In this document: positions 1 through 21,117 of the stretch, in pieces | Numbering within the stretch: the first letter of the stretch is position 1 | Layout: each line of letters starts with the position of its first letter | DNA from: a virus | Length of the DNA: 21,117 bases | IMG/VR virus record: IMGVR_UViG_3300022939_000179 | Span: 1-21,117 of that record | Reading direction: 5' to 3' (one strand) | Notes under the pieces: generated by a model | Told to the model about the DNA's origin: nothing | The model's database searches: none | Seen by the model: the letters and a program-made list of their open reading frames with translations, nothing else | Made by a program: the position numbers and the translations under genes

Positions 1-366
1 AATGCTGTCAGTCGAAAACACTGTGTTTGAAAAAACTCCACGCACCGGAACGAAGCGGGAGGTAGCGGAGAATCCGCGAAGCGGTTTGCGATAGCAAAGC
101 GGTTAAAGCAGATTTTTACGTGATGTCGACGTAGGTAGGGGAAAGGTCAGAGCCCTACAAACAGGTGTATAAACAAAACAACCTACTTCCAAGTCTTGGC
201 TGTGACGAACTCACATGATGTTCAAGATTAGATGGAACCGTAAACAGGTTCCGTCTGACTGAAACAATCTACATGATGCTAAATTGCTTCGCAATTATCT
301 TTCATATATAAAAGAAATAAATGTGTTTGAGCGATAGCGATAACACAGATGAACGCAGTTCATCTA
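1..366. other. Intergenic region rich in mini-hairpins, no convincing gene
   Basis: No ORF with phage-like codon use is seen on either strand. The first 110 bases are G+C-rich compared with the rest and repeat AGCGG four times. Perfect short inverted repeats are dense. They are GCGGA-GAA-TCCGC (65-77), the overlapping alternative CCGC-GAA-GCGG (74-84), TTTGC-GATA-GCAAA (85-98), a 12-bp stem at 228-239/247-258, AATTGC-TTC-GCAATT (282-296), TGTGTT/AACACA (322-327/342-347) and GATGAAC-GCA-GTTCATC (348-364). The last one lies directly beyond the stop codon of the leftward gene and could mark its transcript end, but it has no T-run. Loops of the GNA or GNNA type recur. The function is unknown. Confidence 0.6.
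131..298 (+). ncRNA. Candidate structured RNA (unnamed)
   Basis: This stretch can fold as several helices on the plus strand. An outer GTAG/CTAC pair (131-134/183-186) encloses GTAGGG/CCCTAC (135-140/153-158). TGTGA/TCACA (201-205/211-215) follows. A 12-bp stem (228-239 with 247-258, 7-nt loop) contains two G-T positions that would be G-U pairs only in plus-strand RNA. AATTGC/GCAATT (282-296) comes last. ACATGATG is repeated at 213-220 and 271-278. No tRNA cloverleaf or known RNA family was recognised and no clear promoter was seen, so this is a weak call based on folding potential alone. Confidence 0.25.
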
Positions 367-1442
367 CTAGTATATAGGATTACCAGTTTTCTTAGACATT
401 TCTGCGTTATTCTTGATTAATTCGAATATGAATTTTCTTTGTACAGGAGTAAGATTGTATGCTTCTGTAATGGAAACGCTTCCACGCATATACCAACATA
501 CATCGACTAGATCTTTTTCTAGTGTGCTGTACTCATCATCATAACGTTTGATTAATTGGGTAATTTGGTCAGGCGATTGACATTGTTTTACTTCAATGCG
601 AAAAAACTTGCTTGATTGAACACCATTGGGACTTCAAAGTCTTTTGGCGCTCCTTCCTCGATTAGGTTTTGTGGAACTACTACTTTTTGTGGTGGAAGAT
701 CAAATAACTCTCTTCTTTGTTGCATTTGATCTCTAATAATATCAAACTCTTTTACTGCTAGAGAATTTAAAAACTCTTTAATAGCAACAGCATTGTATTC
801 AAACTCACCGTCTGGTGTTTCGATTGCTTTGATTTGTTTTGCAATAATATCAACGTTCATATCACTAATGCTTTCAAATAACTGTGTCATTTGGCCTTTA
901 CGTTCTGCTAAAGGTCTATCATTATCACGCATTAGAGAAATAAACTTCTGTGTTTCGTAGTTTTGCTGTTCGTAAATGTTTTGATCTTGAAACTTTAATG
1001 GTGCTGTGTGTAGTGTTAGTTCACCGTATTTTACAATAGGTTCCCATACTTTGCCATTAAAACTGTCCAACATACTTACTAGGTCAACTTCAATTTCTAG
1101 ATCTTCGTTTTCCACTCTTGGCACTGGAACAGTCATTTTCATTTTTTCACCATAGGTTGCGATTCTAATCGCAATTAGGATTGCATCTAGATCAATTAAT
1201 GGAATTTCCCATGGATCATCAATTAGTGGTATACAATTTTTAATGCAGGCGTGTACGCTTTCACCGTTCATAAGTGCATCTGGTGTGCGTAGAATTAATT
1301 CATCCTTTGCTGTCATACTAAGCACTGGCAATTCGCCTGTACCTGTTTTTTCAGTAGGATTATTAGCATAGAACTGACCACCGCTGGGCAATCTAAGGTA
1401 GATCTTTGGTTGTCTACTGTACGATTTTAAAAGTTCTGACAC
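367..1442 (-). CDS. Predicted -1 frameshift fusion of gp26-like protein with a gp51-like C-terminal extension
   Basis: The gp26-like frame stops at 588-590. The -1 frame is open from 633 down to the TAG at 367-369, yet it has no in-frame ATG, GTG or TTG until the Met inside CWYMRGS, so it lacks its own start. At 600-606 the minus strand reads T-TTT-TTC, in phase with the gp26 frame as X-XXY-YYZ, 9 bases before the zero-frame stop. Slippage there replaces the last three residues (ALK) with a 77-residue extension starting RIEVKQCQSPDQI and ending KKTGNPIY. The fusion is 358 residues. The layout matches the lambda G/GT type tail-assembly chaperone arrangement, where a -1 shift gives a minor long form. 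T4 also has genes 26 and 51 next to each other. The extension's gp51 identity is from memory of family style and is tentative. Confidence 0.7.
588..1442 (-). CDS. gp26-like baseplate hub / tail assembly protein (zero-frame product)
   Basis: This 284-residue protein resembles the T4 gp26 group (T4 baseplate protein family), a baseplate-hub or tail-assembly factor not necessarily kept in the virion. The N-terminus carries a short beta segment (IYLRLPSGG) and LPVLSMTAKDELILRTPDALMNG. The middle has IDLDAILIAIRIATYGEKM, typical of the family, and the C-terminal half is helical. Translation starts at GTG (1440-1442), with GGAG 11 bases upstream, from an exact T4 late promoter at 1492-1499. T4 gp26 is about 208 residues, so this one is longer. 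It lies head-to-head with the tape-measure-like gene, fitting a chaperone for that protein. A slippery heptamer near its end probably makes a longer minor form. Confidence 0.7.
   Translation of the reverse strand: MSELLKSYSRQPKIYLRLPSGGQFYANNPTEKTGTGELPVLSMTAKDELILRTPDALMNGESVHACIKNCIPLIDDPWEIPLIDLDAILIAIRIATYGEKMKMTVPVPRVENEDLEIEVDLVSMLDSFNGKVWEPIVKYGELTLHTAPLKFQDQNIYEQQNYETQKFISLMRDNDRPLAERKGQMTQLFESISDMNVDIIAKQIKAIETPDGEFEYNAVAIKEFLNSLAVKEFDIIRDQMQQRRELFDLPPQKVVVPQNLIEEGAPKDFEVPMVFNQASFFALK
600..606 (-). promoter_or_regulatory. Slippery heptamer TTTTTTC for -1 frameshifting
   Basis: The minus strand reads T-TTT-TTC with codons AGT|TTT|TTC in the gp26 frame, a canonical X-XXY-YYZ site where both Phe tRNAs can re-pair one base back. 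One base downstream a weak stem CATTG/CAATG with an 8-nt loop spans the zero-frame stop and might act as a stimulator. A Shine-Dalgarno-like AGGAAGGAG lies about 45 bases upstream. The site is supported mainly by the start-less -1 frame that follows it. Confidence 0.7.
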
Positions 1443-1456
1443 TGGTTTTTAATCTC

Positions 1457-1464
1457 CATAAATA
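1457..1464 (+). promoter_or_regulatory. Probable late promoter CATAAATA for the tape-measure/portal unit
   Basis: CATAAATA matches the relaxed NATAAATA late motif. Transcription would start near 1470, about 65 bases before the ATG at 1536. It faces the leftward promoter at 1492-1499, so the two transcripts would overlap by some 15 bases. Confidence 0.45.
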
Positions 1465-1491
1465 AAAGTATACAATAATATGTAGTATGTT

Positions 1492-1499
1492 TATTTATA
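1492..1499 (-). promoter_or_regulatory. T4-type late promoter TATAAATA for the leftward gp26-like gene
   Basis: The minus strand has an exact match to the T4 late-promoter consensus. With T4 spacing the start would be near 1486, giving a leader of about 44 bases before the GTG start. This is the only exact 8/8 match noted; the rightward units use variants. Confidence 0.75.
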
Positions 1500-1535
1500 T
1501 ACGCAGTTTATTCAGAATTTAGATTTGAGAACAGA

Positions 1536-3842
1536 ATGGATGAATTAATTGAATATCTTAAAAGTTTGGGTGGCGGAAAAGGCCCTGCTTCCAATGCTTC
1601 TATAGAAAGCCTTGCAAGGGCACTAGGAGTACAGGTTTCTGCAGGTGATGCAACAGTAATCAGTAGCAAAAAGTCCTTTGATGGTTGGGTTGGTAGTATT
1701 GTTAAAGGAATTAATGTTGCAGACAAACTTACTAACAAATTTGGTAGTATGGTTGAATCAGTTGTTGACTTTTCTAAAGAACAACGTAAAGCCACACAAG
1801 TAGTAAAAGATTTTAGCAGTGTTATTCCAATCATGAAGGGTCTAGGTGTTGCGGCAAGTTCTATTATTAGTGTGCTTGACGACAACATGAAATCGTTCCA
1901 GAGTATGACAGGCGCTGGTGTTTATGCTGGAAAAAGATTTAATATGCTCAGTCGTGATGCGGCCGCATTAGGTATTGATCTTGAAAAGTTTACTACAAAT
2001 ATTCAATCAGCAAGTGGAGATATTGCTAGATTAGGCAAAGGTGGATTAGACTTTGCAGTAGAAGAAAGTAAACGAGCCTTTGAAGCAAACGCAGAATCAT
2101 TAATGAAGTATGGATATAGTTTTGAAGAATCTAGTGAAAAGTTTTTCTCGTTTTTAAATCAAAACAGTTATGCAATGCGTTTGTATGGCAAAGAGAATGT
2201 TGATCTAACCAAAGGAGCAAAATCATACAGTGTGTATTTGAAACGCCTAGCAGAACTAACAGGTGATCAAGTTGATGAAGCAGAAGATCAAATCAAAAAG
2301 GCTAGAGCAAATAATGTGTACAACGCATTTCTACAAACAATTCAAGACCCTGCTACTAGAGCCAAATATGATGCTATTGTAGCGGCATATGGACAAATGT
2401 ATGGCGACGAAGGGCGTGAAAAAGCAATGGCCGTAATTGCAGGATTTGAACCTATGACCAAAGGTGCTCAACAACTTGGTGCCATGGTGCAAGGCCTAGA
2501 TGGTGATTTACGAATGCATAGACAATATGCAAACAACAGTGCTGAGAATATGGATCAATTTACAAGTACATTGTTTGGCGATGTAGCGGCACGTAGTAGA
2601 GGATTGCAAGAAACATATGGCCAACCAGGAATGATGAAAACTATGTTAGCGGCATCGTTCCAAGGAGCAGATCTACCACTACAAAGCATATACGGTGCTA
2701 TGCTAAAGGGAACAAAGTCACAAGAAGAAATTAATGAGATTTTAGGCAGGAATGTTGATGACCAAAACAACAATCTAAATGAAATGGCCAAAATGAATAA
2801 AAACATTCGTGATACACGTTTGTTAATTGCAGAAGAACTAGTAGAACAATTAGGCGATACAACTTATATGAGTTTTATCATTAAAGAAATTAACTCTAAT
2901 TTAGAAAACTTTAATGATGCAATGAAAGCACTATTACAAGCACAAGGTTCAACATCAGCAGGAGACACAGCGTCAGGCAAAACAGACGAAACCACGGCAA
3001 CAAAAGAAGCCATTGAAAACACAATGGATGATGGTATTCTTAAAAATATTGCAAACATTTTAGAAGATATTAGAGACGCATTTTCAAGATTGTTCGGTAA
3101 AGAAGGTGTTGCGGCGGCATTTGATAAAAAAGCACTAGCAAATATACAAAAAGAACTTGCAATAGGATTGCAAAATGGCGGTACGGCTGATATAAGTCAA
3201 AACAAAGCAGTACAAGATGTATTTCAAATGTTTCTTGCTCAAACAGGATCTCAACAAGAGGCTCAACGTTTAACATTAGAAGCACTTAGAAATACGGCAC
3301 TAAATCCAGCAGTAGGATATGGCGGTGGCAAAGAAATGGCTGACATGGTACAACAAGGTATTGCTAGTGGAAAAATTAAAACGTTTGCTGGCGGTACTGG
3401 AGGTTTTGGCAGTTTATTCCAAAACTTTGGTAAAGGTCAACTTTCAGTGCTTCATAACGAAGAAGCAGTTATTCCTAAAGATTCACCATTAGGTGGAATG
3501 CTTAATATGATGCAAGGTGATTTAGGAAATCTTAAACAAAATATGTTTACTGCTGATGGAAAAATGAATGTTTCTGGAATGATATCGTCTGCACAGGAAA
3601 TGGGCAAGAAATATGACACTTATGCAAAAGAAAATGAAGGTGCTATTAAAGACCAAAGCCGCGGTTTGGTAAAATCTATGACCAATTTGACTGATGCAGA
3701 TCTTGACAGGATGGAGAAAGAGAGTGTAAAATCAAATAATACTGTGAGTTCTGGCACATCGGTAAATACAATGTCAGGCGGCAAAATGGACGAATTGATA
3801 AGAATTAATAAACAAATGTTAGCAGAATTGAGAAATATGTAA
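1536..3842 (+). CDS. Tape-measure-like tail protein
   Basis: This 768-residue, mostly helical protein fits a tail-length ruler threaded inside the tail tube. The C-terminal part has the signature often seen in phage tape measures: a Gly/Phe-rich FAGGTGGFGSLFQNFGKG followed by LHNEEAVIPKDSPLGGML (about residues 618-650). Residues 120-170 (MTGAGVYAGKRFNMLSRDAA) and long amphipathic helices from 170 to 470 also fit. A Ser/Thr/Gly linker lies near residues 470-490. T4 gp29, the T4 ruler, is about 590 residues, so a longer tail is possible. No good ribosome site precedes the ATG. Its stop shares one base with the next ATG (TAATG), so it is translationally coupled to the portal gene. The predicted chaperone gene next door supports the call. 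A different tail or baseplate structural role is the alternative. Confidence 0.65.
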   Translation: MDELIEYLKSLGGGKGPASNASIESLARALGVQVSAGDATVISSKKSFDGWVGSIVKGINVADKLTNKFGSMVESVVDFSKEQRKATQVVKDFSSVIPIMKGLGVAASSIISVLDDNMKSFQSMTGAGVYAGKRFNMLSRDAAALGIDLEKFTTNIQSASGDIARLGKGGLDFAVEESKRAFEANAESLMKYGYSFEESSEKFFSFLNQNSYAMRLYGKENVDLTKGAKSYSVYLKRLAELTGDQVDEAEDQIKKARANNVYNAFLQTIQDPATRAKYDAIVAAYGQMYGDEGREKAMAVIAGFEPMTKGAQQLGAMVQGLDGDLRMHRQYANNSAENMDQFTSTLFGDVAARSRGLQETYGQPGMMKTMLAASFQGADLPLQSIYGAMLKGTKSQEEINEILGRNVDDQNNNLNEMAKMNKNIRDTRLLIAEELVEQLGDTTYMSFIIKEINSNLENFNDAMKALLQAQGSTSAGDTASGKTDETTATKEAIENTMDDGILKNIANILEDIRDAFSRLFGKEGVAAAFDKKALANIQKELAIGLQNGGTADISQNKAVQDVFQMFLAQTGSQQEAQRLTLEALRNTALNPAVGYGGGKEMADMVQQGIASGKIKTFAGGTGGFGSLFQNFGKGQLSVLHNEEAVIPKDSPLGGMLNMMQGDLGNLKQNMFTADGKMNVSGMISSAQEMGKKYDTYAKENEGAIKDQSRGLVKSMTNLTDADLDRMEKESVKSNNTVSSGTSVNTMSGGKMDELIRINKQMLAELRNM

Positions 3843-5575
3843 TGAGTTGGAAAAGATACTTCACAGATTATACACCTAAAGACACTTCAGGACAAACTAG
3901 TCCTATTCCAGGATCAGGCGGAGCCGGTCCTGCACGTACCAACTATTCATCATTTCTTCCTGATGTTTATACAGGTCATCCAAATCGTATTGAACGCTAT
4001 GGTCAGTACGAAACAATGGACATGGACAGTGAAGTAAATGCGGCACTGGATATTCTTGCTGAATTTTGTTCACAGAAAAATCCAGAAAACAACACGCCTT
4101 TTAAAATTAACTACAAAAAACAAGGTACTAGTACAGAAACTAAAGTACTAAAAGGTTATCTACAACAGTGGGCAGACCTAAATAATTTTGAAAGACGTAT
4201 TTTTAAAATTGTACGTAATGTATTCAAATACGGTGATGCATTTTTTGTACGTGATCCAGAAACATTTAAGTGGATGCACGTTGACCCTGCAAAACTAGAC
4301 AAGATTATTGTAAACGAAAGTGAAGGCAAAGAGCCTGAGCAATATGTAGTTAGAGATATTAATCCTAATTTTCAAAATTTATCAGTGACACAAATTGATG
4401 CTAAGTCAACTAATTCACAAGTTGAGTATACTACTGCTGGCGGTTCACTTGGTAGAGGTTATGTAGGTGGTGCTAATACTAATTCAGGCACACGTTTTGA
4501 AAATAACCTAAACCAGTTTGCCATTGATGCGGCACATTTTGTACATATCAGTTTAAGTGAAGGACTAGATAGAAACTTTCCATTTGGTAATTCACTATTA
4601 GAATCAGTTTTTAAAGTTTACAAACAAAAAGAGTTATTAGAAGATGCGATTATTATCTATCGTGTACAAAGAGCACCTGAAAGACGTGTGTTCTATATTG
4701 ACGTAGGTAATATGCCAACACACCTTGCTATGGGATTTGTTGAAAGAGTTAAAAATGAAATTAACCAAAGACGTATTCCAAGTACTTCAGGTGGCGGCAC
4801 CAATGTAATTGATGCTAGTTTCAATCCGCTGTCTATCAATGAGGACTACTTCTTTCCACAAACGGCTGAAGGTAGAGGTTCTAAGGTTGAAACATTGCCC
4901 GGTGGTACTAACCTAGGTGAAATTGATGACTTGAAATTCTTTACTAATAAACTATTCCGTGGTTTACGTATTCCAAGTTCTTATCTACCAACAGGTGCAG
5001 ATGACAGTGCTTCACAATATAATGACGGTAGAGTTGGCACAGCATACATTCAAGAGTTAAGATTTAACAAATATTGCGAACGTTTACAAAACTTAATGGC
5101 ATTTATCTTTGATAAAGAGTTTAAAATGTATCTAAATGCTAAAGGTGTAAACATTGATAACGATTTATTTGATCTAGTATTCCAACCTCCAATGAACTTT
5201 GCTTCATACAGACAAAGTGAAATGGATAATGCAAGGGTTAACACATTTGCTTCATTACAAGAAATTCCATATATGAGTAAACGTTTTGCACTTAAACGTT
5301 TCTTAGGACTAACACCTGAAGAAATGGCAGAGAATGAATCACTATGGAAAGAAGAAAACGGTGATCAAATTCCAAACAATGAAAGTGCAAGTATGGAAAT
5401 GAGAGGTGCAGGAGTCACAGCAGGCGGAATTGCTAGTGATATAGATAATCTTGGTGATGCATCACCAGATGCAGAAGCACCACCACCAGCAGAAGAAGGC
5501 GGAGATACTACTCCAGCAGGCGGAGGCGAAGGCGGAGCAACACCACCACCACCAGGCGGCACTCCAGGCGCATAG
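3842..5575 (+). CDS. Portal vertex protein gp20
   Basis: This 577-residue protein is the T4-like portal, the 12-subunit ring at the capsid vertex through which DNA is packaged and to which the neck attaches. Family features include the N-terminal RIERYGQYETMDMDSEVNAALDILAEFC split over residues 50-80, the EYSTAGG-like EYTTAGGSLGRG stretch (about 197-208), the DAAHFVHISLSEGLDRNFPFG region (about 229-250), IYRVQRAPERRVFYIDVGNMP (about 278-298), and FFTNKLFRGLRIPSSYLP with the following DDSASQYNDGRVGTAYIQELRF. The last 45 residues are a low-complexity Pro/Gly/Glu/Ala tail rather than the usual end. The length is slightly above T4 gp20 (524). Position directly before the prohead core and protease genes agrees. 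Confidence 0.93.
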   Translation: MSWKRYFTDYTPKDTSGQTSPIPGSGGAGPARTNYSSFLPDVYTGHPNRIERYGQYETMDMDSEVNAALDILAEFCSQKNPENNTPFKINYKKQGTSTETKVLKGYLQQWADLNNFERRIFKIVRNVFKYGDAFFVRDPETFKWMHVDPAKLDKIIVNESEGKEPEQYVVRDINPNFQNLSVTQIDAKSTNSQVEYTTAGGSLGRGYVGGANTNSGTRFENNLNQFAIDAAHFVHISLSEGLDRNFPFGNSLLESVFKVYKQKELLEDAIIIYRVQRAPERRVFYIDVGNMPTHLAMGFVERVKNEINQRRIPSTSGGGTNVIDASFNPLSINEDYFFPQTAEGRGSKVETLPGGTNLGEIDDLKFFTNKLFRGLRIPSSYLPTGADDSASQYNDGRVGTAYIQELRFNKYCERLQNLMAFIFDKEFKMYLNAKGVNIDNDLFDLVFQPPMNFASYRQSEMDNARVNTFASLQEIPYMSKRFALKRFLGLTPEEMAENESLWKEENGDQIPNNESASMEMRGAGVTAGGIASDIDNLGDASPDAEAPPPAEEGGDTTPAGGGEGGATPPPPGGTPGA

Positions 5576-5577
5576 AA

Positions 5578-5863: not shown

Positions 5864-6451
5864 ATGCACAGAACAGGCTTTGTAATAGGGAACGGAACGT
5901 CCCGCAAAAAATTTGATCTTAATAAACTTGTTGATAAAGGTATAATGTATGCCTGCAATGCCGTTTATCGCGAGTTTTTACCCAACGTATTAATAGCAGT
6001 TGACCCTAAGATGGTACATGAAATAGTTGCTAAACGAGCACAATTCGACACAGAAGTATGGACCAACTATAACAAAGCATACGAAACATATGTTGGTTTA
6101 AATTACTTTAATCCGAGCAAAGGATGGAGCAGTGGACCAACAGCATTGAATAAAGCCTGCACTGATGGCTGTCAAACTATCTATATTTTAGGGTTTGATT
6201 ATGTTGGTTTAGAAGGCGGTAAGCGAGTAAACAACATTTATGCAGGATCACCCAACTACAAAGGCGCACACGAGCCTGCAACCTACTATGGAAACTGGTT
6301 AAGACAAACAGAAACCATACTAAAAGCACACTCTAGCACTAGTTTTGTACGTGTTATAACAAAGAAATGTTATAATCCTAACAATTTTGCACCGTATAGC
6401 AACTACAAAACTATCACTTATAAAGAATTCGAAAACATATTAGATAAGTAA
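5864..6451 (+). CDS. DUF115 / GT42-like predicted transferase (possible moron gene)
   Basis: This 195-residue protein starts with a nucleotide-binding-like GFVIGNGTSRKKFDL (about 5-20), then CNAVYREFLPNVLIAVDPKM (about 31-50), and a central GWSSGPTALNKACTDGCQTI leading to YILGFDYVGL (about 85-116). That order (GNGxS, N-x-x-Y, SG-x-x-AL, I-Y-x-LGFDY) resembles the DUF115/MptE-like Rossmann family and the CST-type GT42 sialyltransferases. A role in glycan or nucleotide-sugar chemistry is therefore possible, but no activity can be assigned. It interrupts the head cluster with its own late-like promoter and a terminator just after it, the layout of an added 'moron' unit. Similar proteins occur in marine T4-like phages. 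Confidence 0.5.
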   Translation: MHRTGFVIGNGTSRKKFDLNKLVDKGIMYACNAVYREFLPNVLIAVDPKMVHEIVAKRAQFDTEVWTNYNKAYETYVGLNYFNPSKGWSSGPTALNKACTDGCQTIYILGFDYVGLEGGKRVNNIYAGSPNYKGAHEPATYYGNWLRQTETILKAHSSTSFVRVITKKCYNPNNFAPYSNYKTITYKEFENILDK

Positions 6452-7447: not shown

Positions 7448-8074
7448 ATGGCTTACTTACGTGAGAATTTGACATTCGACCAAGCACAGGTCACCCTTGA
7501 GTCAAAGGGAGATGGAGATAGCAAGGATCTCTATCTTAAAGGCATCTGTATTCAGGGTGGTGTCAAAAACGCTAACCAGCGTGTGTACCCTGTTTCCGAG
7601 ATAGGCAACGCTGTTAAAACACTCAAGGATCAAATCTCAGGCGGTTATTCTGTACTAGGTGAAGTAGATCACCCAGATGATTTGAAAGTAAATTTGGATC
7701 GTGTATCGCATATGATTACTGATATGTGGATGGATGGTCCTAACGGGTTTGGCAAGATGAAAATCTTGCCGACTCCCATGGGTAAACTAGTTGAAACTAT
7801 GTTGCAAAGCGGAGTTAAACTAGGTGTATCCAGCAGGGGTAGTGGAAATGTTAACGAGTCTAACGGCGAAGTTAGCGATTTCGAAATTATCACGGTAGAC
7901 GTGGTAGCACAACCTAGTGCCCCAGGTGCATATCCTACACCAATCTATGAACACATCATGAATACACGAGGTGGTTATAGTGCGTTTAGGACTGCGTCAG
8001 AGGTACAACAAGATGCTAAAGCACAAAAGTATCTTAAAGAAGCAATGCTAAGAGTCATTAAAGGCTTGAAGTAA
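7448..8074 (+). CDS. Prohead core protease gp21
   Basis: This 208-residue serine protease belongs to the T4 gp21 family (herpesvirus-assemblin fold, MEROPS S78-type). It cleaves scaffold, core and capsid proteins inside the prohead before DNA packaging. Visible hallmarks are GEVDHPDD with the predicted catalytic His75, and GVSSRGSG with the nucleophile Ser in the SS pair at 128-129. Asp144 or Asp151 in the following strand could complete the triad. N-terminal NANQRVYP (about 41-48) is also family-typical. Its length matches T4 gp21 (212). TAAGGAG sits 8 bases before the ATG. Confidence 0.93.
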   Translation: MAYLRENLTFDQAQVTLESKGDGDSKDLYLKGICIQGGVKNANQRVYPVSEIGNAVKTLKDQISGGYSVLGEVDHPDDLKVNLDRVSHMITDMWMDGPNGFGKMKILPTPMGKLVETMLQSGVKLGVSSRGSGNVNESNGEVSDFEIITVDVVAQPSAPGAYPTPIYEHIMNTRGGYSAFRTASEVQQDAKAQKYLKEAMLRVIKGLK

Positions 8075-8090: not shown

Positions 8091-9176
8091 ATGAGTGATG
8101 TTTTTAATAAACTTTTTGAAACTGGAATTATCAGTGAAGAGGTCAAAGACCAAATTACTGGTGCTTGGGACGAAAAGATTAAAGAACACCGTGATAGTGT
8201 GACTGCTGAACTACGTGAAGAATTTGCAAATCGCTACGAGCATGACAAACAAAACATGGTTGAAGCAATTGATCGCATGGTTTCCGAGCGTTTGGAATCA
8301 GAAATTTCTGAGTTTTCTGAAGATAAGAAGGCACTTGCAGAAGCAAGAGTTGAATATAAGAAGAAAGTTTCAGAGCATTCTGAGAAATTGCAAGAGTTTA
8401 TGCTCAAGCAATTGACCAAAGAAATTGCAGAGTTAAATGAAGACCGTCAAAAAGTCACAGAAAACTTTGTAAAACTCGAAGACTTTGTAGTTAAAGCACT
8501 TGCAAAAGAAATCAACGAGTTTGCAGTTGACAAAAGAGATCTTGCTGAAACTAAGGTTAAACTTGTTAAAGAAGCAAAATCAAAATTCAATGAACTTAAA
8601 TCTAAGTTTGTTGCTAAGTCCGCTAAAGTGGTTGAGGACGCTGTTAACACTAAGTTGGCAGAAGAAATCAAACAACTCAAAGAAGACATCACGGCTTCTA
8701 GAGAAAACCACTTTGGTAGAAAAATCTTCGAAGCGTTTGCTAATGAATATGGTTCATCTTACTTAAATGAGAAATCAGAAACTGCGAAGTTAATGAAACT
8801 TGTTTCAGAGAAAGACGAAGCGTTAGCAGAGGCTAAGAAAGCCATCACAGAGAAGGAAACTCTTGTTGAGTCTAAGGAAGCAGAAATTACTGCGGCTAAA
8901 GACAAAGCAGAAAGAGTAGCAGTGATGAATGAGTTGCTATCTCCATTGGGTAAAGACAAAAAAGAAATTATGTCTGAACTTTTGGAGTCGGTGCAAACTA
9001 ATAAGTTGCACACAGCGTTTGAGAAGTATCTACCAGCAGTGATGGAAGATAAGGCTCCAAAAGTTAAAAAGGCGTTAAACGAAGGCGTTGAAATCACAGG
9101 CAATAAAGAAAACACAATTAAGGAAGATACTACTTCAAACTTAATTGAACTCCGCAGATTAGCGGGATTAAACTAA
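8091..9176 (+). CDS. Scaffolding (prohead core) protein gp22
   Basis: This 361-residue, highly charged coiled-coil protein forms the internal scaffold of the prohead and is removed by gp21. It is helical almost throughout. A 29-residue tandem repeat is visible at residues 100-128 and 129-157 (consensus L-x-x-F-x-x-K-x-L-x-KEI-x-E), with a weaker copy before it (about 67-90). HFGRKIFEAF (about 207-216) and the C-terminal LIELRRLAGL are characteristic of T4-like scaffolds. T4 gp22 is 269 residues, so this one is longer, in keeping with the added repeats. AGGAG precedes the ATG; it lies 16 bases after gp21 and 17 bases before gp23. Confidence 0.88.
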   Translation: MSDVFNKLFETGIISEEVKDQITGAWDEKIKEHRDSVTAELREEFANRYEHDKQNMVEAIDRMVSERLESEISEFSEDKKALAEARVEYKKKVSEHSEKLQEFMLKQLTKEIAELNEDRQKVTENFVKLEDFVVKALAKEINEFAVDKRDLAETKVKLVKEAKSKFNELKSKFVAKSAKVVEDAVNTKLAEEIKQLKEDITASRENHFGRKIFEAFANEYGSSYLNEKSETAKLMKLVSEKDEALAEAKKAITEKETLVESKEAEITAAKDKAERVAVMNELLSPLGKDKKEIMSELLESVQTNKLHTAFEKYLPAVMEDKAPKVKKALNEGVEITGNKENTIKEDTTSNLIELRRLAGLN

Positions 9177-9193: not shown

Positions 9194-10366
9194 ATGTCAG
9201 AAAATATCAACAACAACTGGCAGGAAACCAAAGAAGCACTTTTAGAAGGCCTTCAAGGTTCTAAAAAAGGTGTTATGGATGTCACTCTCGAGAACACTCG
9301 CAAGTATCTCGCTGAGGCGGCAACCGCTGGGGCAACTTCCGCAGGGAACGTAGCAACTCTAAACAGAGTTATCCTTCCAGTAATTAGACGTGTTATGCCA
9401 ACTACAATCGCTAACGAGATTGTTGGTGTACAACCAATGACTGGACCTGTAGCACAGATCCACACACTAAGAGTACGTTATGCTGAAACTTTCGATTCTG
9501 CAACAGCAGGCGAAGAAGCACTTTCACCATTTAAAATTGCTGAAGGTTATTCAGGTAATGCAACTACTAATGCGGCAGATGCGACTGCAACATTAGAAGG
9601 TTCTGCAGGTAAAAAGTTAAGCATTCAAATCTTAAAACAAGCAGTAGAAGCGAAAACTCGTAAACTATCTGCTCGTTGGACATTTGAAGCGGCTCAAGAT
9701 GCTCAAGCACAGCAAGGCATCGACGTAGAGGCTGAAATCATGGCGGCTTTAGCACAAGAAATTACTGCTGAAATCGATCAAGAGATCATCCAATCACTTC
9801 GTTCATTAGCATCAGTTGAAGAAACTTACGACCAAGCAGGCGTAAGTGGTACTGCAACTTTCGTTGGTGACGAACACGCGGCTTTAGCAGTTCAAATTAA
9901 CAGAGTTGCTAACAAAATTGCTCAACGTACACGTAGAGGCGCAGGAAACTTTGCAGTGGTTTCAAACCAAGCATTGACAATCCTACAGTCTGCTACAACT
10001 TCTGCGTTCGCAAGAACAACTGAAGGTACTTTTGAAGGCCCAACAAACACTAAGTATGTTGGTACTTTAAATAACTCTATGAGAGTTTACGTTGACGCTT
10101 ACTTGGCTGATTCAGGTCAAGATGCTAACCAAGTGCTTGTTGGATATAAAGGTTCATCAGAAGCAGATGCGGCGGCATTCTACTGCCCATACATTCCGCT
10201 AATGTCTTCAGGTGTTGTTTTAGATCCATCAACTTTCGAACCAGTTGTGTCATTTATGACTAGATATGGTTATGTAGAGTTGACAAACACTGCATCTTCA
10301 CTAGGTAATGCGGCTGACTACCTTGGTAAAGTACAAATTACTTCTGCCAACGTATCATTCTCTTAA
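9194..10366 (+). CDS. Major capsid protein gp23
   Basis: This 390-residue T4-like (HK97-fold) capsid protein forms the hexamers of the head. Recognisable family stretches are LNRVILPVIRRVMPTTIANE (about 56-75), VGVQPMTGPVAQIHTLRVRY (about 77-96), a MAALAQEITAEIDQEII helix (about 179-195), and VLVGYKGSSEADAAAFYCPYIPL towards the end, closing with FMTRYGYVEL. T4 gp21 cleaves after L/I-x-E. A good match is LAE at 39-41 followed by AATAG, with LLE at 16-18 as a second, which would remove a roughly 41-residue N-terminal delta domain. AAAGGAGAG precedes the ATG and a strong terminator follows the stop. It is shorter than T4 gp23 (521), as usual in marine relatives. Confidence 0.94.
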   Translation: MSENINNNWQETKEALLEGLQGSKKGVMDVTLENTRKYLAEAATAGATSAGNVATLNRVILPVIRRVMPTTIANEIVGVQPMTGPVAQIHTLRVRYAETFDSATAGEEALSPFKIAEGYSGNATTNAADATATLEGSAGKKLSIQILKQAVEAKTRKLSARWTFEAAQDAQAQQGIDVEAEIMAALAQEITAEIDQEIIQSLRSLASVEETYDQAGVSGTATFVGDEHAALAVQINRVANKIAQRTRRGAGNFAVVSNQALTILQSATTSAFARTTEGTFEGPTNTKYVGTLNNSMRVYVDAYLADSGQDANQVLVGYKGSSEADAAAFYCPYIPLMSSGVVLDPSTFEPVVSFMTRYGYVELTNTASSLGNAADYLGKVQITSANVSFS

Positions 10367-13278: not shown

Positions 13279-16200
13279 ATGGCCGTCGGTCGTATTTCGG
13301 GTCCGTTGTTAAAGGCAAATCTGCTCCGTAATGGTGTGGACTTGGCGTTTGAAACGGATTTATTATATTTGGATGTTAACAATGGTCGCATTGGTATCAA
13401 AAAGACCAATCCTTCCTATGAACTAGATGTAAACGGTACAGTACAAGTCACAGACTGGATTGCAACAAATTCAGCAACAACAGGTAATTTAACTTTTCAA
13501 GGAAACACAATTAGTAGTACACTAGGTACTATTGAACTTACACCTTCAGGTGGTGATCCTGTAATTTACCATTCAAGAATTCAAGTTGATTCATTAGAAA
13601 TGAATGACAACACTATCAGTACAATTGATAGTAATGCTCCTATCGAACTTGCTCCTAATGGAACAGGTACTATTGAACTATTAGGAAACACAAACGTCAC
13701 AGGAAACTTATATGCAACTGGCAATATTACTGCTGGCGGAAATATTAATTTAGGTGATGCTGACACAGACACTGTTAATTTTAAAGCAGATGTTGTTTCA
13801 AATATTATTCCAGATGCTGATCAAATTTACACACTAGGTACTCCTAGCAAACGTTGGAAAACACTAAACTCTAGACAAGCAAATATTGATAATATTCAAA
13901 TTACAGATTCAACAATTGAAACTATTGACAGTAATGCAGATTTAACTATTCGTGCTAACGGAACAGGTAAAGTAAGAATTGAAAACTTGCTTTTAAATGA
14001 AGAAGGTCAGACATTATTTGTGACACAAAACGGTGACGACGCAGAAGAAGGCACTAGTATTGACAGTGCATTTGCAACAATCAAACACGCTTTGAGTCAA
14101 GCAAGTTCAGGTGATATTATTAAAGTTTCTGCAGGAATTTATACAGAAGAATTTCCACTAGTAGTACCAGCAGGAGTCACAGTAGACGGCGCAGGCTTAC
14201 GTGCAACTGTTGTTAGTCCAACTGTTGCAACAGAAGATTTAGATTGTTTTCACTTAAACAGTGCTACAACTATTCAACATTTAGCAATTAAAAATATGAA
14301 GTATAACTCGTCAAACGACACAGGTTATGCTTTTAGTTTTGATCCTGCTGGATCATTAAGTGTTCCATTGCAATCACCATATATAATAAACTGTACAGTA
14401 TTAAACAAAGGTACTACAACTAGTGCTAGTGATCCTTATGGTTTTGATAGTGGAGATGCAGGACGTGGTGCAAAAATTGATGGTAGTTTAGTTTCTGCAA
14501 GTTCAATTGAAGCGGCAATGTTGTTTAATGATACTACTTTCTTTGTACCAAATTCCGTTGGTTTGTATATGACTAATGGTGCAAGATGTGAGTGGTTAAA
14601 CAGTTTTGTTTATTTTGCTGACAAAGGCATTGTTGGCGAATCAGGTAGTGCTGGTAGAGGCGGCGACGGAAAAACTATTGTTGATTTATCGGGATACACA
14701 GGAACGTTTAATGTCACCGACACAGTCACTTTAACATCAGAAGACGGATCAACAGTACTAGCACAAGGTACTATTGAATCAAAAGAAACAGTTGACGGCA
14801 GATTAAGATTAACATTTGATGGTAAAGTTTCAGGTTGGTCTACAACAACTGATAGAAAAAGTAAAACTATTAACCTAACAGGAAATAGTTCTTTAAGTAC
14901 TACACAGAAAAAGTTTGGTACAGCAAGTTTATACCTAGATGGCACAGGTGATTATGCAAGTGTGCCTAGTTCAAATGATTTTGGATTTGGAGAAGGAAAC
15001 TTTACAGTTGAAGGCTTCTTTAGATTTGACGGAGTCACAGGAACACAATACTTGTTTGATATGAGAACAGAAGCAAGTGATAATGCAATTAGTGTTTATA
15101 CTAACGGTGCTAATGTAAGAGTTGCTGTTGCTGGTAGTGATGTTATTACTGGAACAGATGTACTACTAACAAACACTTGGTACCATATTGCTGTTTCTAG
15201 ATCAAACGATGGAACAAAATTGTTTGTTAACGGAAATCAAGACGGATCAACATATAGTGATACAAACAACTATGGTACAGCAAGAATGTTTGGTATTGGT
15301 GGCGACTATAATAACACAAACTTGTTTACAGGATATGTAGACGAACTAAGAGTCACTAAAGGTTTACCAAGATATTTGTCAGGTTTTTCAACACCAACAG
15401 CAGAGTTTGTTGGAGATAGCACAACAGTATTTTTAACACACTTTAATGGTGCAAATGCTAGTACAACAGTCACAGAAGATGTAGCAGTTCAAGTTGATAT
15501 TTCTTCTTCAAGTGGTGGTAGTGCAACAGGCATTGAATTTATTGATCTTAAACAATTTGGTGCTGAACTAAGAGCAATTGGTAGTGCAAACGTTTACGGA
15601 AATCAAGGTGTTATTGCAGACGGCGACGGTGTTCTCCTAAGATTGATCAATCATAACTTTGGATACGTAGGCGTTGGAAAGAATTTAGAAAATGATGTTT
15701 CTAGAGTAATTCAAGCAAACGAAATTACTGAAACAAACAACGGTAAAGTATTATTCAGTTCAATTGACCAAAGCGGTGACTTTAGAGTTGGTAATGCATT
15801 TACTGTTGACCAAGAAACAGGAAACGTCACATTTGAAGCAGAAAGTTTTGATATTAGTTCATTATCTGGTTTAACATTTACTGACGGTGGAAATACAACT
15901 ATTGTAGATCCTAGCAGAGTTGAAACAGGAAATATTAGAATTAGTGGTAATCAAATCATTACTACAAGCGGTGACTTAACAATTAATCCAGATGGATCAT
16001 CAGATGTTGTAATTGACGGAAACTTAGTGATTAATGGCGGATTTAATGAAATCCGTGACCAAGATGGTGATACTAAAGTAAACGTTGAAACTACACTTGG
16101 TGCAGACAATGATGTTATTACTTTTGATGTTGCAGGAACAACTATTGCTTATATCGATAGTGATGGTTTACAAACAACATCATTTATTTCAGACGAAGTT

Positions 16201-16965
16201 AAATTAATTAACAACTCTGTACAAACATTTAGAAACGATACTAATTTAGAAATTTTTGCACACGGCGACGGATATGTAGACTTTAACAGTGATGATGCTA
16301 TTAAACTTCCTGCAGGTACAACTGCTCAAAGACCGGGCACACCTGTTAATGGTATGTTTAGATATAACACAAGTTCAAACGTATTTGAATTATATGCAGA
16401 CGGATTTTGGAATGCAGTTGGTGGTAGTGTAAGTGGTGTTGTTGACCAAGACTTAGACACTTATATCACAGCAGAATTAACACAAGGTAATGACGACGAT
16501 ACATTTAGATTTTATAATGGCGCGGCAGGACTAACAGCAGATTTAAATGCAACACGTTTTAATACTGACACAATTCACGTTAATACACTTAGTACAGAGG
16601 CTACAGATGCAGATTTAACTATTGCTCCAAACGGTACAGGTAAAGTAGTAATTGGAGATGTAGAGTGGGATCAGGGCACAAATACGATAACTAATGTAGT
16701 AAGTGATTCACAGATTAACTTTGCTGGAACAGACGAAGGATATGTGGATTTTAATGGAACATATGGTCTTAAGTTTCCAGTAGGTGATAACAACAATAGA
16801 CCAGTGTCTAATCTTGCTGTAGGTTTAACAAGATATAACACTCAGCAGAGTAGATTAGAAGTGTGGGATGGTAGTGTATGGGCATCTGTTGTTGGACAAC
16901 AGGGTGGTATTACATTCCAAGAAGCGGAAGAACTATCATTCTTAAACGCATTAATATATGGATAG
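13279..16965 (+). CDS. Large fibre protein with beta-helix and inserted LamG-like domain
   Basis: This 1228-residue protein begins with MAVGRISGPLLKANLLRNGV and LLYLDVNNGRIGI, a conserved N-terminus of large marine T4-like virion proteins. Residues 60-245 carry repeats of the type DSNADLTIRANGTGKVRIEN. From about 251 (GDDAEEGTSIDSAFATIKHA) a DUF1565/pectin-lyase-like right-handed beta-helix runs to about 470. At about 529-725 lies a LamG/concanavalin-like jelly roll (FGTASLYLDGTGDYASVPSS, WYHIAVSRSNDGTKLFVNG, GYVDELRVTKGLPRY), a likely carbohydrate-binding insertion. The conserved FGAELRAIGSANVYGNQG segment (about 757-774) resumes after it. The C-terminus has two NG-x-x-RYN-type modules (about 1021 and 1182). 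A tail fibre or adhesin role is inferred. GGAG precedes the ATG. Confidence 0.8.
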   Translation: MAVGRISGPLLKANLLRNGVDLAFETDLLYLDVNNGRIGIKKTNPSYELDVNGTVQVTDWIATNSATTGNLTFQGNTISSTLGTIELTPSGGDPVIYHSRIQVDSLEMNDNTISTIDSNAPIELAPNGTGTIELLGNTNVTGNLYATGNITAGGNINLGDADTDTVNFKADVVSNIIPDADQIYTLGTPSKRWKTLNSRQANIDNIQITDSTIETIDSNADLTIRANGTGKVRIENLLLNEEGQTLFVTQNGDDAEEGTSIDSAFATIKHALSQASSGDIIKVSAGIYTEEFPLVVPAGVTVDGAGLRATVVSPTVATEDLDCFHLNSATTIQHLAIKNMKYNSSNDTGYAFSFDPAGSLSVPLQSPYIINCTVLNKGTTTSASDPYGFDSGDAGRGAKIDGSLVSASSIEAAMLFNDTTFFVPNSVGLYMTNGARCEWLNSFVYFADKGIVGESGSAGRGGDGKTIVDLSGYTGTFNVTDTVTLTSEDGSTVLAQGTIESKETVDGRLRLTFDGKVSGWSTTTDRKSKTINLTGNSSLSTTQKKFGTASLYLDGTGDYASVPSSNDFGFGEGNFTVEGFFRFDGVTGTQYLFDMRTEASDNAISVYTNGANVRVAVAGSDVITGTDVLLTNTWYHIAVSRSNDGTKLFVNGNQDGSTYSDTNNYGTARMFGIGGDYNNTNLFTGYVDELRVTKGLPRYLSGFSTPTAEFVGDSTTVFLTHFNGANASTTVTEDVAVQVDISSSSGGSATGIEFIDLKQFGAELRAIGSANVYGNQGVIADGDGVLLRLINHNFGYVGVGKNLENDVSRVIQANEITETNNGKVLFSSIDQSGDFRVGNAFTVDQETGNVTFEAESFDISSLSGLTFTDGGNTTIVDPSRVETGNIRISGNQIITTSGDLTINPDGSSDVVIDGNLVINGGFNEIRDQDGDTKVNVETTLGADNDVITFDVAGTTIAYIDSDGLQTTSFISDEVKLINNSVQTFRNDTNLEIFAHGDGYVDFNSDDAIKLPAGTTAQRPGTPVNGMFRYNTSSNVFELYADGFWNAVGGSVSGVVDQDLDTYITAELTQGNDDDTFRFYNGAAGLTADLNATRFNTDTIHVNTLSTEATDADLTIAPNGTGKVVIGDVEWDQGTNTITNVVSDSQINFAGTDEGYVDFNGTYGLKFPVGDNNNRPVSNLAVGLTRYNTQQSRLEVWDGSVWASVVGQQGGITFQEAEELSFLNALIYG

Positions 16966-17304: not shown

Positions 17305-17316
17305 TAGGAGATAACG

Positions 17317-17664
17317 ATGGCAAATTATATCGGCGGAAATATGGAACAACTAATAGATGGTATGAATACCAGATACTTCTATGGTTTAAGAAAACTAGAC
17401 GACGGTACAATTTACCTTGCTATTGTTGACCAATTAAATCCAAATGATCAAATTGAAATTAACGTTCCTGGTAATAGTGCAGAGAACTATAACGATTTTG
17501 ATATTGGACAAGACTTTTTTGAAGGTAGAGATGTAAACCACGAAAAGGTTTATAACAACTTAAAATATGAACAATACAGATGGGATTACCAAAAGATTAA
17601 TTACTACATCAACGAAGATGGAAATTTAGTCGCAAGAGTAAATCAACCATATGATTACAGTTAA
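17317..17664 (+). CDS. Conserved small virion-type protein
   Basis: This 115-residue protein, MANYIGGNMEQLIDGMNTRY onward, has a good ribosome site (AGGAGATAACG) 12 bases after the preceding stop. It contains FYGLRKLDDGTIYLAIVDQL (about 20-39), an acidic middle, and an aromatic C-terminal region (YEQYRWDYQKINYYINEDG, about 84-102). The type occurs next to large adhesin genes of marine T4-like phages. The function is unknown; position suggests a tail or fibre component. GTTAAATA overlaps its stop codon and could be a late promoter for the next gene, but the gap to that ATG is 14 bases, so this is doubtful. Confidence 0.55.
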   Translation: MANYIGGNMEQLIDGMNTRYFYGLRKLDDGTIYLAIVDQLNPNDQIEINVPGNSAENYNDFDIGQDFFEGRDVNHEKVYNNLKYEQYRWDYQKINYYINEDGNLVARVNQPYDYS

Positions 17665-17681
17665 ATATAGGTGAGAAATAA

Positions 17682-20600
17682 ATGGCACAGTTTAAACTAG
17701 ACAGATTTACTTACAAATACAGAGGCGATTGGGCGCCTGATGTCGCATATGCACTAGATGACATTGTGACAGTTAATGGTAATGTTTACTTCTGTACAGC
17801 GGCACACACATCACAAGATGATTTTTATGGCGACTTTTTATATGACTTTACATATCCAGAGCCATATAGTGCACCAAACGGTGTTGATGACGAATTTAAC
17901 CTATCTGCAAATGCTGGCGGTCAAAATACAACAGTAGACGGAACAGGAATTGACTTTACAGTCACACGAAGCGGTAAGAAATATTCTGTGACACTTGTTG
18001 CTGGTGGTAGAAACTATGTTGCTAAAGAATATTTTGTAATTCCAGGCGATCAAGTAGGCGGCGTCCGCGGAGTAAATGATGCAACAGTCACAGTAGCCAC
18101 AGTTGATAATGCATACGAAGGTGCGTTAGTTGTACCTGGTGTAGTTCAAAGTTTAGAAGTTAGCGGTACTCCTGCTACTACTAGATGGGAAATTATGTCT
18201 GAAGGATATAGTTGGCAGGGTGCATGGCAAAACAGTACTTCAGTAAGTTCAATTGATCCTGAAACCGGAAACAATGTTATTACTATTACGCCTAAACTAT
18301 ATTACATAAACGATTTAGTAGAACGAGGCGGCATAATTTACCGTTGTACACAAGGACACCAGGCACTAACAGATGCTGATTTTGGTCACGCAAATAACAT
18401 TAGATTTTGGACAACTCACGTATTTGGATCTCATTGGTCTGGAGATTGGGTTGGATTTACACCATATCAAGTCGGTGATGTTGTTAGAGCCGGCGGTTCA
18501 ACTTGGAGATGTACAACTGCACACACTTCAGGAACAAATGCCGAAGGACTAGCAGGCGATCAAGGATATTGGGAAAGAATAGTCACAGGTGATGATTGGT
18601 TAAACGAATGGGCACCTGCAACAAATTATAAACCACAAGACATTGTTCGTTATGGAGGATATGTTTATAGAGCAAATGCTCAACACACTTCAACAAGTAA
18701 TTTTGAAAACGAAGTAGACGTAGAAGGTTGGTGGGATTTAGTTGTTCCTGGTATTGAATACAAAGGTCTCTGGACAGCACCAACAGCACACGTTCAAGGC
18801 GGAACACCAAACACAATTAAATGGAAAGTTGGTGATATGGTTAGGCATAGTCAAGCAATTTATGTTTGTAATGCTACACATACTGTCACAGGCACTGACG
18901 AGGAAACTGATGATCCGTTATTTAGAGACACAGAATCTTATTGGAATTTATATGTTGCAGGAATGGCATATGAAGAACAATGGAACGCAGATACAAATTA
19001 CCAACCCGGTGATATTGTTGAATATGGTGGATATACATACTATTGTAAAACGTTCCATACTAATAAAGTTCCTTCAGTAGAAGTAAATGATTGGGAACTT
19101 TTAAGTGAATGGTATAATTTTAAAAATGATTGGTCTGCGGTACAACCTTATAAAGTAGGTGATGTTGTAAGAAATCACGGTTATTTGTACTGGGCAGTTA
19201 TCGACAACGTTGGTAGTAAACCAGACAGCGGTATTAAAACAGATGTTAGTATTACATTTGGAACAGCCTTTAATTGGGACGGAGTCACAACACCAAATAA
19301 AACTTATACACGTGGCACTACATTAATTTTAGATCAATCGCATAGTTCAAACGATTCTCATCCAATTTATCCAGCAGATACAACAGACGGATTCTTAAAT
19401 GTAGCAGATGGTGGTAATGAATTATTTACTGGAGTGCAAACAACTTATATTTTAGATGACGAAATTGTAGCAAGTTTAGAAGATTATAATTCAGGATTTA
19501 ATACAGCAACAGTTAGACAAGTTATTGTTAAACTTGAACCTGATTGTCCAGATGCAATTTATTTTGCAGATTATAATAACACAGGATCAAGTGGTGTTCA
19601 AGTAATTTCAGTTAGTGGAACATCTAATTGGGATTTATTAATGCCTGGTGTTTCTTTTAAAGGACCTTGGAATGATTTTGATGCAGACTCTACACTTAAT
19701 GCATACGAATTAGGCGACATTGTACTTTGGGCAGGAACTGCTTATCAGTGTATTAGAAGACATGATGCTAATAGTGCTAATAGTAGACCGGATCAAGATA
19801 CAAGAAAAACTATTCCAGTATACTGGAAAGTATACGTACAAGGTATTAGAACAAACGTACTTGCAAGACCTGGCGATATTAAAACTTACAGTGCAGGATC
19901 AAATGAGCGTTTAGAAATTGGTGACCTAGGAACTGTACTTAAAGGTTTACCACAAACAAATGCAGACTCAAGTTTAGGACAAGGTCCACAATGGGATCTT
20001 TTAGGAGATTCTAAAAATAATTTTTATGTAGCACTTGACGGTGTTGACGAAGCAACACGCGGCGCCACAAAACAAAATCCGTTTAGAACTGTTAAGTATG
20101 CACTAGATCACATTGCAGGTGATACAGTAAACAGAACACCAGCAACAGTATTTGTTTCAACTGGTGAATTTAAAGAAATATTACCTTTAAAAATTCCTGC
20201 TAATGTTGCAGTAGTTGGAGATGAATTAAGATCAACTAGAATTGTTCCGGCCGCAGGATACGAAGGAACAGATATGTTCCACGTAAAGAATGGTTGTGGT
20301 ATTAGAAATTGTACTCTACAAGGCCTTGTAGGAACTATGAGTGCTGTTAACGAGTTTGGCACTAAACGTCCAGTAGGAGGACATCCTGCGTTTGTTAGTT
20401 TAGATCCAGGAACAGGTCCAAGTGATAGTAATGTGTGGGTCACATCTAAATCTACTTATGTGCAAAATGTCACAACATTTGGTACTAATTGTGTAGGAAT
20501 GAAAATTGACGGTGGGTTGCATTTAGGTGGTAATAAATCTATTGTTGCTAACGACTTTACACAAGTAATAAGTGGCGGTATTGGTATTTGGGTCACTAAC

Positions 20601-21117
20601 GGTGCATTATCAGAACTTGTATCAGTGTTTACATATTATTGTCATATTGGATACTTGTCTGAAGCAGGCGGAAAGATTCGTGCTACAAACGGAAACAACT
20701 CATACGGTGATTACGGTTCTGTTGCTGAAGGGTATGACTTATTAGAAACACCAATTACAGCAAATGTAAACAACAGAGATAATGACGCAACAGTATCAAA
20801 CGTATTAACAGATTTAGACAACGAAATTTATTTGTTTGGTTATGCACACGCTGGACAAAATTATACAAGTGCAGATATTGATGCATTTTCAGGTACTGGT
20901 TCTAACTTAGAAGCAGAATTTAAAGAATTTAGAAACAAATCACTATCACAAGTTAGAATGCTTGATCCGGGTGATTCATCTACACCTGGTGGTTCAGGAT
21001 TTAGTATTACTACAGGTCAGTCACAAGGTGGAACAGGTTCTACACTTTTATTAAGTGCAACTGATACTGTTGAAGATAGTAGTGGTGTTTATGATGGCAA
21101 GCGTATTTTTATTACGC
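17682..21117 (+). CDS. Very large adhesin-like virion protein with chitin-binding-like repeats (3' end outside window)
   Basis: The frame is open from the ATG at 17682 (AGGTGAG upstream) to the window end: 1145 codons, incomplete. Residues 13-520 carry seven repeats of the CBM5/12 (ChtBD3) type, W-x(5-8)-Y-x-x-GD-I/V-V-x-x-G-x-x-Y-x-C-x-x-x-H-T, for example WNADTNYQPGDIVEYGGYTY. Residues about 521-645 hold a different beta domain (YTRGTTLILDQSHSSNDSHP, then PDAIYFADYNNTGSSG), and an eighth repeat follows (about 650-705). From about 781 (FYVALDGVDEATRGATKQNP) a DUF1565-like beta-helix begins and runs past residue 1000. This order points to a glycan-binding tail or fibre protein on the virion surface. 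Only the 3' part is missing; no frameshift was seen. Confidence 0.85.
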   Translation, partial: MAQFKLDRFTYKYRGDWAPDVAYALDDIVTVNGNVYFCTAAHTSQDDFYGDFLYDFTYPEPYSAPNGVDDEFNLSANAGGQNTTVDGTGIDFTVTRSGKKYSVTLVAGGRNYVAKEYFVIPGDQVGGVRGVNDATVTVATVDNAYEGALVVPGVVQSLEVSGTPATTRWEIMSEGYSWQGAWQNSTSVSSIDPETGNNVITITPKLYYINDLVERGGIIYRCTQGHQALTDADFGHANNIRFWTTHVFGSHWSGDWVGFTPYQVGDVVRAGGSTWRCTTAHTSGTNAEGLAGDQGYWERIVTGDDWLNEWAPATNYKPQDIVRYGGYVYRANAQHTSTSNFENEVDVEGWWDLVVPGIEYKGLWTAPTAHVQGGTPNTIKWKVGDMVRHSQAIYVCNATHTVTGTDEETDDPLFRDTESYWNLYVAGMAYEEQWNADTNYQPGDIVEYGGYTYYCKTFHTNKVPSVEVNDWELLSEWYNFKNDWSAVQPYKVGDVVRNHGYLYWAVIDNVGSKPDSGIKTDVSITFGTAFNWDGVTTPNKTYTRGTTLILDQSHSSNDSHPIYPADTTDGFLNVADGGNELFTGVQTTYILDDEIVASLEDYNSGFNTATVRQVIVKLEPDCPDAIYFADYNNTGSSGVQVISVSGTSNWDLLMPGVSFKGPWNDFDADSTLNAYELGDIVLWAGTAYQCIRRHDANSANSRPDQDTRKTIPVYWKVYVQGIRTNVLARPGDIKTYSAGSNERLEIGDLGTVLKGLPQTNADSSLGQGPQWDLLGDSKNNFYVALDGVDEATRGATKQNPFRTVKYALDHIAGDTVNRTPATVFVSTGEFKEILPLKIPANVAVVGDELRSTRIVPAAGYEGTDMFHVKNGCGIRNCTLQGLVGTMSAVNEFGTKRPVGGHPAFVSLDPGTGPSDSNVWVTSKSTYVQNVTTFGTNCVGMKIDGGLHLGGNKSIVANDFTQVISGGIGIWVTNGALSELVSVFTYYCHIGYLSEAGGKIRATNGNNSYGDYGSVAEGYDLLETPITANVNNRDNDATVSNVLTDLDNEIYLFGYAHAGQNYTSADIDAFSGTGSNLEAEFKEFRNKSLSQVRMLDPGDSSTPGGSGFSITTGQSQGGTGSTLLLSATDTVEDSSGVYDGKRIFIT

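Follow-up and report, generated by a model that had tools for sequence, protein, structure and literature searches.

Complete and lineage-layered loss of short palindromic words in a T4-like phage clade, a probable imprint of Type II restriction

Short Type II palindromes have been described in double-stranded DNA phages at observed/expected ratios <0.1, and complete or near-complete elimination of sites in about one tenth of viral genomes, according to the available text of a previous survey (Rusinov et al., 2018, PMC6286503). A second described situation is that of solitary endonucleases of the PacI type, which, as far as the accessible part of that report goes, are tolerated without a methyltransferase since the genome lacks their site (PMC3488263). 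Here, we analyzed a 21,117-nucleotide stretch of viral DNA (IMG/VR record IMGVR_UViG_3300022939_000179, positions 1 to 21,117; hereafter, the window), from which the palindromes AGCT, GCWGC and GTWAC are completely absent. The window is a strong case of the already known elimination of restriction sites, in a complete, layered and fast-changing form. Unlike the eliminations surveyed in 2018, close relatives here show words missing throughout a clade plus a private missing word per sub-lineage, GTWAC was lost since the split from a relative 82-87% identical, and a neighboring nuclease locus is a possible agent. New are the private turnover of words among lineages and, outside the window, a conserved gene for a predicted PD-(D/E)xK nuclease beside a hypervariable slot.

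On both strands of the window (37.6% G+C), a recount returned 0 for AGCT, GCAGC, GCTGC, GTAAC and GTTAC, as claimed in a preliminary description made from the letters alone. Under independence, 71 AGCT, 16 GCWGC and 44 GTWAC would be expected, close to the hand estimates of that description (about 70, 15 and 45, respectively), and under a second-order Markov model 46.8, 24.0 and 55.8. The sister words, which it had considered common (about 40 GTSAC and more than 20 GCSGC), numbered 45 and 39, and other palindromes that it listed were indeed present (GATC 68, GTAC 95, CCGG 14, GGWCC 10, GANTC 54, GTTAAC 12). When words of 4 and 5 letters were scanned, at most two inner positions being degenerate, the only near-absent ones were AGCT, GCWGC, GTWAC, words containing AGCT, and AGCYC (1 vs. 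15.5 expected); all three missing words are palindromic, and no unrelated non-palindromic word emerged.

Codon usage bends around the missing words. When synonymous codons were shuffled 1,000 times across 17 window genes (5,447 codons), the mean count was 58.2 for AGCT (standard deviation, sd, 6.1; minimum 40), 24.9 for GCWGC (sd 2.2; minimum 17) and 39.1 for GTWAC (sd 4.4; minimum 25), against 0 observed for each, so that neither this null nor the Markov model explains the zero counts; control words fitted the shuffle (GATC 52 vs. 47.2; TGCA 103 vs. 106.3). The valine codon ahead of threonine was GTC or GTG in 21/21 pairs, while GTT and GTA make up 316 of the 380 valine codons overall, and the alanine codon ahead of alanine was GCG or GCC in 28/28 pairs (26 had been located before), with GCA and GCT accounting for 368 of 442 alanine codons. 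Both codon habits agree with the preliminary description.

The window's own record comprises only these 21,117 bases. A longer record, G031 (181,867 bases), includes the whole window (1-21117) at positions 81431-102547 on the minus strand, at 99.986% identity (3 mismatches, no gap). The count in the rest of the genome had been named beforehand as a test that could refute the observation, and the three words are also 0 in G031, with whole-record values (observed/expected, as in the word ratios below) of 0/422 for AGCT, 0/179 for GCWGC and 0/475 for GTWAC. Further zero words in G031 are RCATGY (0/188), YGCGCR (0/52) and RCGCGY (0/37), and the partial shortage of CATG in the window (29 vs. 64) fits the loss of RCATGY. 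With the Markov and codon nulls in place of the Burge measure used by Rusinov et al., both the window and G031 show observed/expected <0.1 at >15 expected sites.

Relatives were compared through the 361-amino acid (aa) gene in scaffold position (window 8091-9176, plus strand; phrog_10922, with no assigned function), on which the tree was based. From 89 records put in, 78, including the window, carried this gene at an identity of at least 70%, some loci being overlapping stretches of one record. Neither AGCT nor GCWGC occurs in 73 of the 78 (704,885 bases), the exceptions being L334, L341 and L370 with a single site each, L339 with four and L372 with 29 AGCT. Among records of at least 4 kilobases (kb), 61/64 lack both words, and within these 61, GTWAC is missing in four (the window, L317, L325 and L320), ACWGT in five, and GCGC in three (a loss called only for records of at least 9 kb), CTNAG occurs 0 or 1 times in three, and 46 show none of these losses. 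The GTWAC-less group forms one branch of the tree (support 100/97), as does the CTNAG group, represented there by two rows; ACWGT and GCGC require two changes apiece, owing to L372 and to L362, the latter too short to call. Overall, private words cluster on the tree, with 8 changes for all labels vs. 16.6 when shuffled, and a value as low was reached in 0/200 shuffles. L372 deserves a separate mention, since its scaffold-position gene groups with ACWGT-less records, yet it holds 29 AGCT and 9 GCWGC in 10.3 kb; it is perhaps a chimera or recombinant.

The nearest relatives beyond the GTWAC-less group have normal or raised GTWAC (L001 49, L002 73); therefore, the loss of GTWAC is recent and lies on the window's branch. 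In this comparison with related phages, loss of AGCT and GCWGC belongs to the whole clade, and loss of GTWAC to the window's lineage only. The preliminary description had proposed selection against three restriction specificities, which is well supported, since controls for composition, codons and lineage fail to explain the absence; its suggestion that the three words are the fingerprint of one host does not hold, since two go with the clade and GTWAC with the window's lineage, and the genome lacks at least three more words. Other relatives nearly lack other words, such as CTAG (0/39 in L471, 0/27 in L485), ACGT (0/35 in L506), CATG (0/16 in L456) and TGCA (1/27 in L468).

The manner in which GTWAC disappeared can be followed in the alignment with L001 (82-87% identity to the window), where 0/44 aligned GTWAC sites of L001 are kept. 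Control words were retained at 41-67% (GATC 19/35, GTAC 29/56, TGCA 33/75, ACGT 17/41, GCSGC 14/21). A single change removed 26 of the 44 sites, the changes affect all five positions with many substitution types, and GTSAC increased from 16 to 31 across the aligned region. The complete loss and the mixture of substitutions therefore indicate selection against the word, and not one mutational process; mutation bias or deamination was rejected on the same mixture, and codon-pair or composition effects by the Markov and codon-shuffle nulls.

These data are probably best explained by loss of cut sites on the phage side under Type II restriction, with host systems as the main agent. The data show the absence itself, its extent over the genome, its excess over both nulls, its distribution among lineages and the mixture of substitutions, whereas we infer that a Type II enzyme was responsible and to whom it belongs. 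On this account, Type II restriction endonucleases met by a T4-like phage would have exerted strong purifying selection, and cut sites would have been removed, largely by synonymous changes. The clade-wide words AGCT and GCWGC would most likely answer restriction-modification systems widespread in hosts, and the private loss of GTWAC would answer an endonuclease acting on the window's lineage alone, somewhat more likely a host system than the phage's own slot nuclease. In support, the missing words are short and palindromic, like the orthodox Type II sites that phages eliminate in the available text of Rusinov et al. (PMC6286503), and AGCT and GCWGC are reported as methylated motifs of a freshwater lake community (PMC6329791), so that such specificities exist. 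Several points weigh against this account. The literature searched did not yield GTWAC as a restriction motif, and no host was identified for the window's phage, hence no cognate restriction system could be matched; to our knowledge, neither GTWAC nor ACWGT is a common specificity. Moreover, a slot rich in nuclease genes holds one private gene in the GTWAC-less lineage and another in the GCGC-less lineage, a finding not expected if hosts alone were responsible. The agents would be DNA-cutting enzymes of hosts or, just possibly, of the phage itself. The purging of short words becomes visible at lineage resolution, since the relatives are close enough to reveal the sites lost, the changes that removed them and the branch concerned, and a private missing word would be a record of the last cutting enzyme that a lineage met.

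At least one palindrome at ≤6% of expectation was found in 51/238 sequences, each 4 kb or longer, a set that comprises the window and overlapping stretches. Ten cultured relatives were scanned over stretches of 33-42 kb. CCWGG is missing in those of XacN1, Atu_ph07 and SCTP-2, XacN1 also being without GATC; GCGC is missing in GAP32, XaC1, RaK2 and 121Q; Phosso showed only AGCGCT (0/11), and PA5oct AGTACT (0/13) and GGSCC (1/10). Over whole records, XacN1 (L279-L298) has GATC 0/1441 and CCWGG 0/677, GAP32 (L259-L276) has GCGC 0/255, and in both many six-letter palindromes are 0, words too many to be self-encoded and therefore pointing to host systems. Like the window's phage, to which they are distantly related through capsid and portal proteins, XacN1 and GAP32 have words at zero across the whole genome, but they differ in the words concerned, in the many six-letter words and in having known hosts. 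In Vibrio phage 2.275.O, also among the ten relatives, 7-deazaguanine pathway genes adjoin the head genes (L250 36945-40978), and the scan of 41 kb revealed no palindrome close to absence, which we count in favor of restriction as the cause. The thymidylate synthase/hydroxymethylase family, considered as a reason why some relatives need no avoidance, gave no clean pattern and was rejected: it was absent in 13/13 clade and related records and present in 14/22 others, avoiding isolates included. A search for the HinP1I family had no match in 17 records of relatives; the model matched no control genome either, hence it is uninformative.

A possible, though doubtful, alternative is that the phage itself carries solitary Type II-like endonucleases without methyltransferases, directed against host or rival-phage DNA, the private word being the specificity of a slot gene and the phage being safe since its own genome is without the cognate site. 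This proposal originates in the locus where G031 and the GCGC-less G036 differ, a slot flanked by a gene for an AAA-ATPase and by g191, a gene of 191 aa (G031, 145503-146078). Across the clade, the slot is either empty or occupied by an HNH gene, by a gene of 205 or 199 aa, by two genes (370+119 or 375+119 aa), by a pair of a 74-aa and an HNH gene, by an HNH plus a 250-aa gene (G036, L452) or by a 272-aa gene (G031, 146075-146893); some of these genes, read by eye, we take to be GIY-YIG or to bear catalytic motifs. L442 and L445 have a 179-181-aa gene in slot position and no g191, and g191 was not found at slot position in L453-L508, where some contigs end before it; in L457 and L458, about 1.1 kb of different sequence occupies this place, and L492 has a 37% g191 homologue elsewhere. 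The CTNAG-less relatives were represented by structural contigs only, and the contig of L440, with 1 CTNAG, stops within the slot.

In g191, D64, E74 and K76 are invariant among 15 sequences, and the predicted structure (predicted local distance difference test, pLDDT, 86.5) places strands at residues 63-66 and 72-77, so that a conserved D and (D/E)xK lie on core strands, as in a PD-(D/E)xK nuclease fold, to which we assign the protein on this model. The nine best VIA-align rows for the model are restriction endonucleases, including NaeI (Z 10.4, root-mean-square deviation 3.4, 138 residues aligned), 3ndh (9.4, 4.3, 165) and DpnI (8.3, 3.9, 130); Foldseek gave no PDB match <0.001. The ratio of nonsynonymous to synonymous substitution (dN/dS) of 0.02-0.27 indicates purifying selection on g191, and for the 250-aa gene it is 0.166 against its 70% homologue. 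In favor of this alternative, no methyltransferase of PF01555 was found in 22/22 records, and none of PF02086 or PF00145 in 13/13. All four records in which the 272-aa gene was found have GTWAC 0, and both records with the 250-aa gene have GCGC 0; the 70% homologue of the latter lies in L452, whose 4,423 bases contain 0 GCGC, a stretch too short to tell. Where the slot is empty (L430, L432-L434), no private word was seen, the contigs being short. Tentatively, g191 and the slot gene could form an exchangeable cassette of solitary endonucleases, in which an absent cut word, and not DNA modification, would be the mark of self, a new slot gene would force a swift genome-wide purge of another word, and GTWAC would be a new specificity, that of the 272-aa gene. 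The proposal resembles the PacI type, as described in the available text, in an endonuclease without methyltransferase in a site-free genome, and differs in that PacI comes from a bacterium with a tested enzyme, while here phages carry predicted nucleases of inferred specificity (PMC3488263). If true, it would give a virus a novel means of distinguishing its own DNA from that of its host, and the missing word would predict the specificity of an uncharacterised nuclease.

Several observations count against self-encoded nucleases. G053 has AGCT 0/423 without g191, and G061, with a homologue, has 28 AGCT, so g191 as the single cause of AGCT loss is not supported; within the clade, no word separated carriers from non-carriers beyond words absent in both. 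Moreover, RCASTGY is missing from G053 (0/103), whose private genes, inspected by eye, showed no nuclease, and the slot gene of L442 is 92% identical to that of the ACWGT-less L445, yet L442 has ACWGT 10 vs. 13.9. Each match between gene and word represents one lineage, the predicted structure of the 272-aa protein is worthless (pLDDT 34.9), and neither this gene nor the 250-aa gene was named by any library searched. In G031, PADLOC gave single weak hits to models of restriction-methyltransferases (Type I 2.4e-7, Type IIG 1.1e-5, Type IV 4.9e-11), which might reflect a methyltransferase domain. Relatives of the 272-aa protein and g191 were not confirmed in genome_contigs, tblastn at an expectation value (E) of 1 found none of g191 in phages and plasmids, and none of the 272-aa or 250-aa gene was found there.

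Cyanophages offer a parallel on both sides of this question. The best match of g191 in a viral structure library is a protein of S-SM1, most likely SSM1_072 judging by its 170-aa length, which is 28% identical to g191 over 83 residues; at E 0.01, S-SM1 alone in 'phages' carried a g191 homologue, and SSM1_072 had no match in any other phage record. S-SM1 lacks GTAC (0/258 in 90 of 174 kb), whereas S-SSM7 (94/150), S-ShM2 (145/180; 40 kb each), Syn19 (161/306) and ACG-2014j (82/190) keep it, in line with a self-encoded nuclease. On the other hand, S-SM1 has a dam-like methyltransferase away from SSM1_072, whose neighbors are a helicase gene and a hypothetical gene, and it has a host strain different from those of S-SSM7, S-ShM2 and Syn19 (none is given for ACG-2014j). 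CCGG is absent in stretches of S-SM1, Syn19, S-SSM7 and S-ShM2, and ACG-2014j keeps it (37/34). The S-SM1 group thus resembles the window's clade in a shared missing word, CCGG, with a private loss of GTAC and a g191 homologue in S-SM1, and the layout of shared words plus one private word recurs in cyanophages. Syn19 and ACG-2014j differ, having a gene for the endonuclease RsaI, whose site is GTAC, with an adjacent methyltransferase gene and GTAC kept; for this reason both were rejected as solitary RsaI carriers. In addition, AGCT was strongly reduced in three of the four Synechococcus phages Syn19, S-SM1, S-SSM7 and S-ShM2 (L542-L545, L547, L548).

The RsaI pairs of Syn19 and ACG-2014j, which keep GTAC while S-SM1 is without it, show that phages with complete restriction-modification pairs exist, and enzymes from such competitors in the same cells might also have imposed the losses; we regard this as improbable for the window, as no pair for AGCT, GCWGC or GTWAC was seen, none having been sought. 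An artefact of assembly, like composition, codon pairs or mutation bias, is a highly improbable cause since, although codon pairs shape word counts, the two nulls, the GTWAC-rich near relatives, the mixed substitutions and the agreement on missing words among records of many metagenomes all contradict it.

Regarding gene content, the window is a T4-like head and baseplate block, and the closest cultured phages are large and T4-like, with at most 70% identity in the capsid protein and 52% in the portal. Predicted genes include a baseplate hub (588-1442, minus strand; phrog_150, E 5.1e-10) and, on the plus strand, the portal (3842-5575; phrog_213, E 1.4e-114), the head maturation protease (7448-8074; phrog_207, E 1.7e-56), the major head protein (9194-10366; phrog_138, E 1.8e-99) and a baseplate wedge or tail protein (13279-16965; phrog_13163), whose relatives led to the long records G031-G044. 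Within the head block, a 195-aa gene (5864-6451) has a weak match to the alpha-2,3-sialyltransferase family (phrog_4603, E 8e-6). The G031 region 141396-142073 appears by eye ThyX-type thymidylate synthase-like, and PF00303 was not found in G031. A 604-605-aa protein, carbamoyltransferase-like by eye and beside a glycosyltransferase-like gene (L082 17260-19074, G031 63766-65583), is without homologues in G011 and G013. The tail region of L082 (11876-14472) encodes three proteins in tandem, each about 280-290 aa long and rich in cysteine and glycine, with G031 orthologues at 68364-71000, and in the replication region of G031 (alignment A3) one protein matches the PADLOC dCTPase model (E 1.6e-25).

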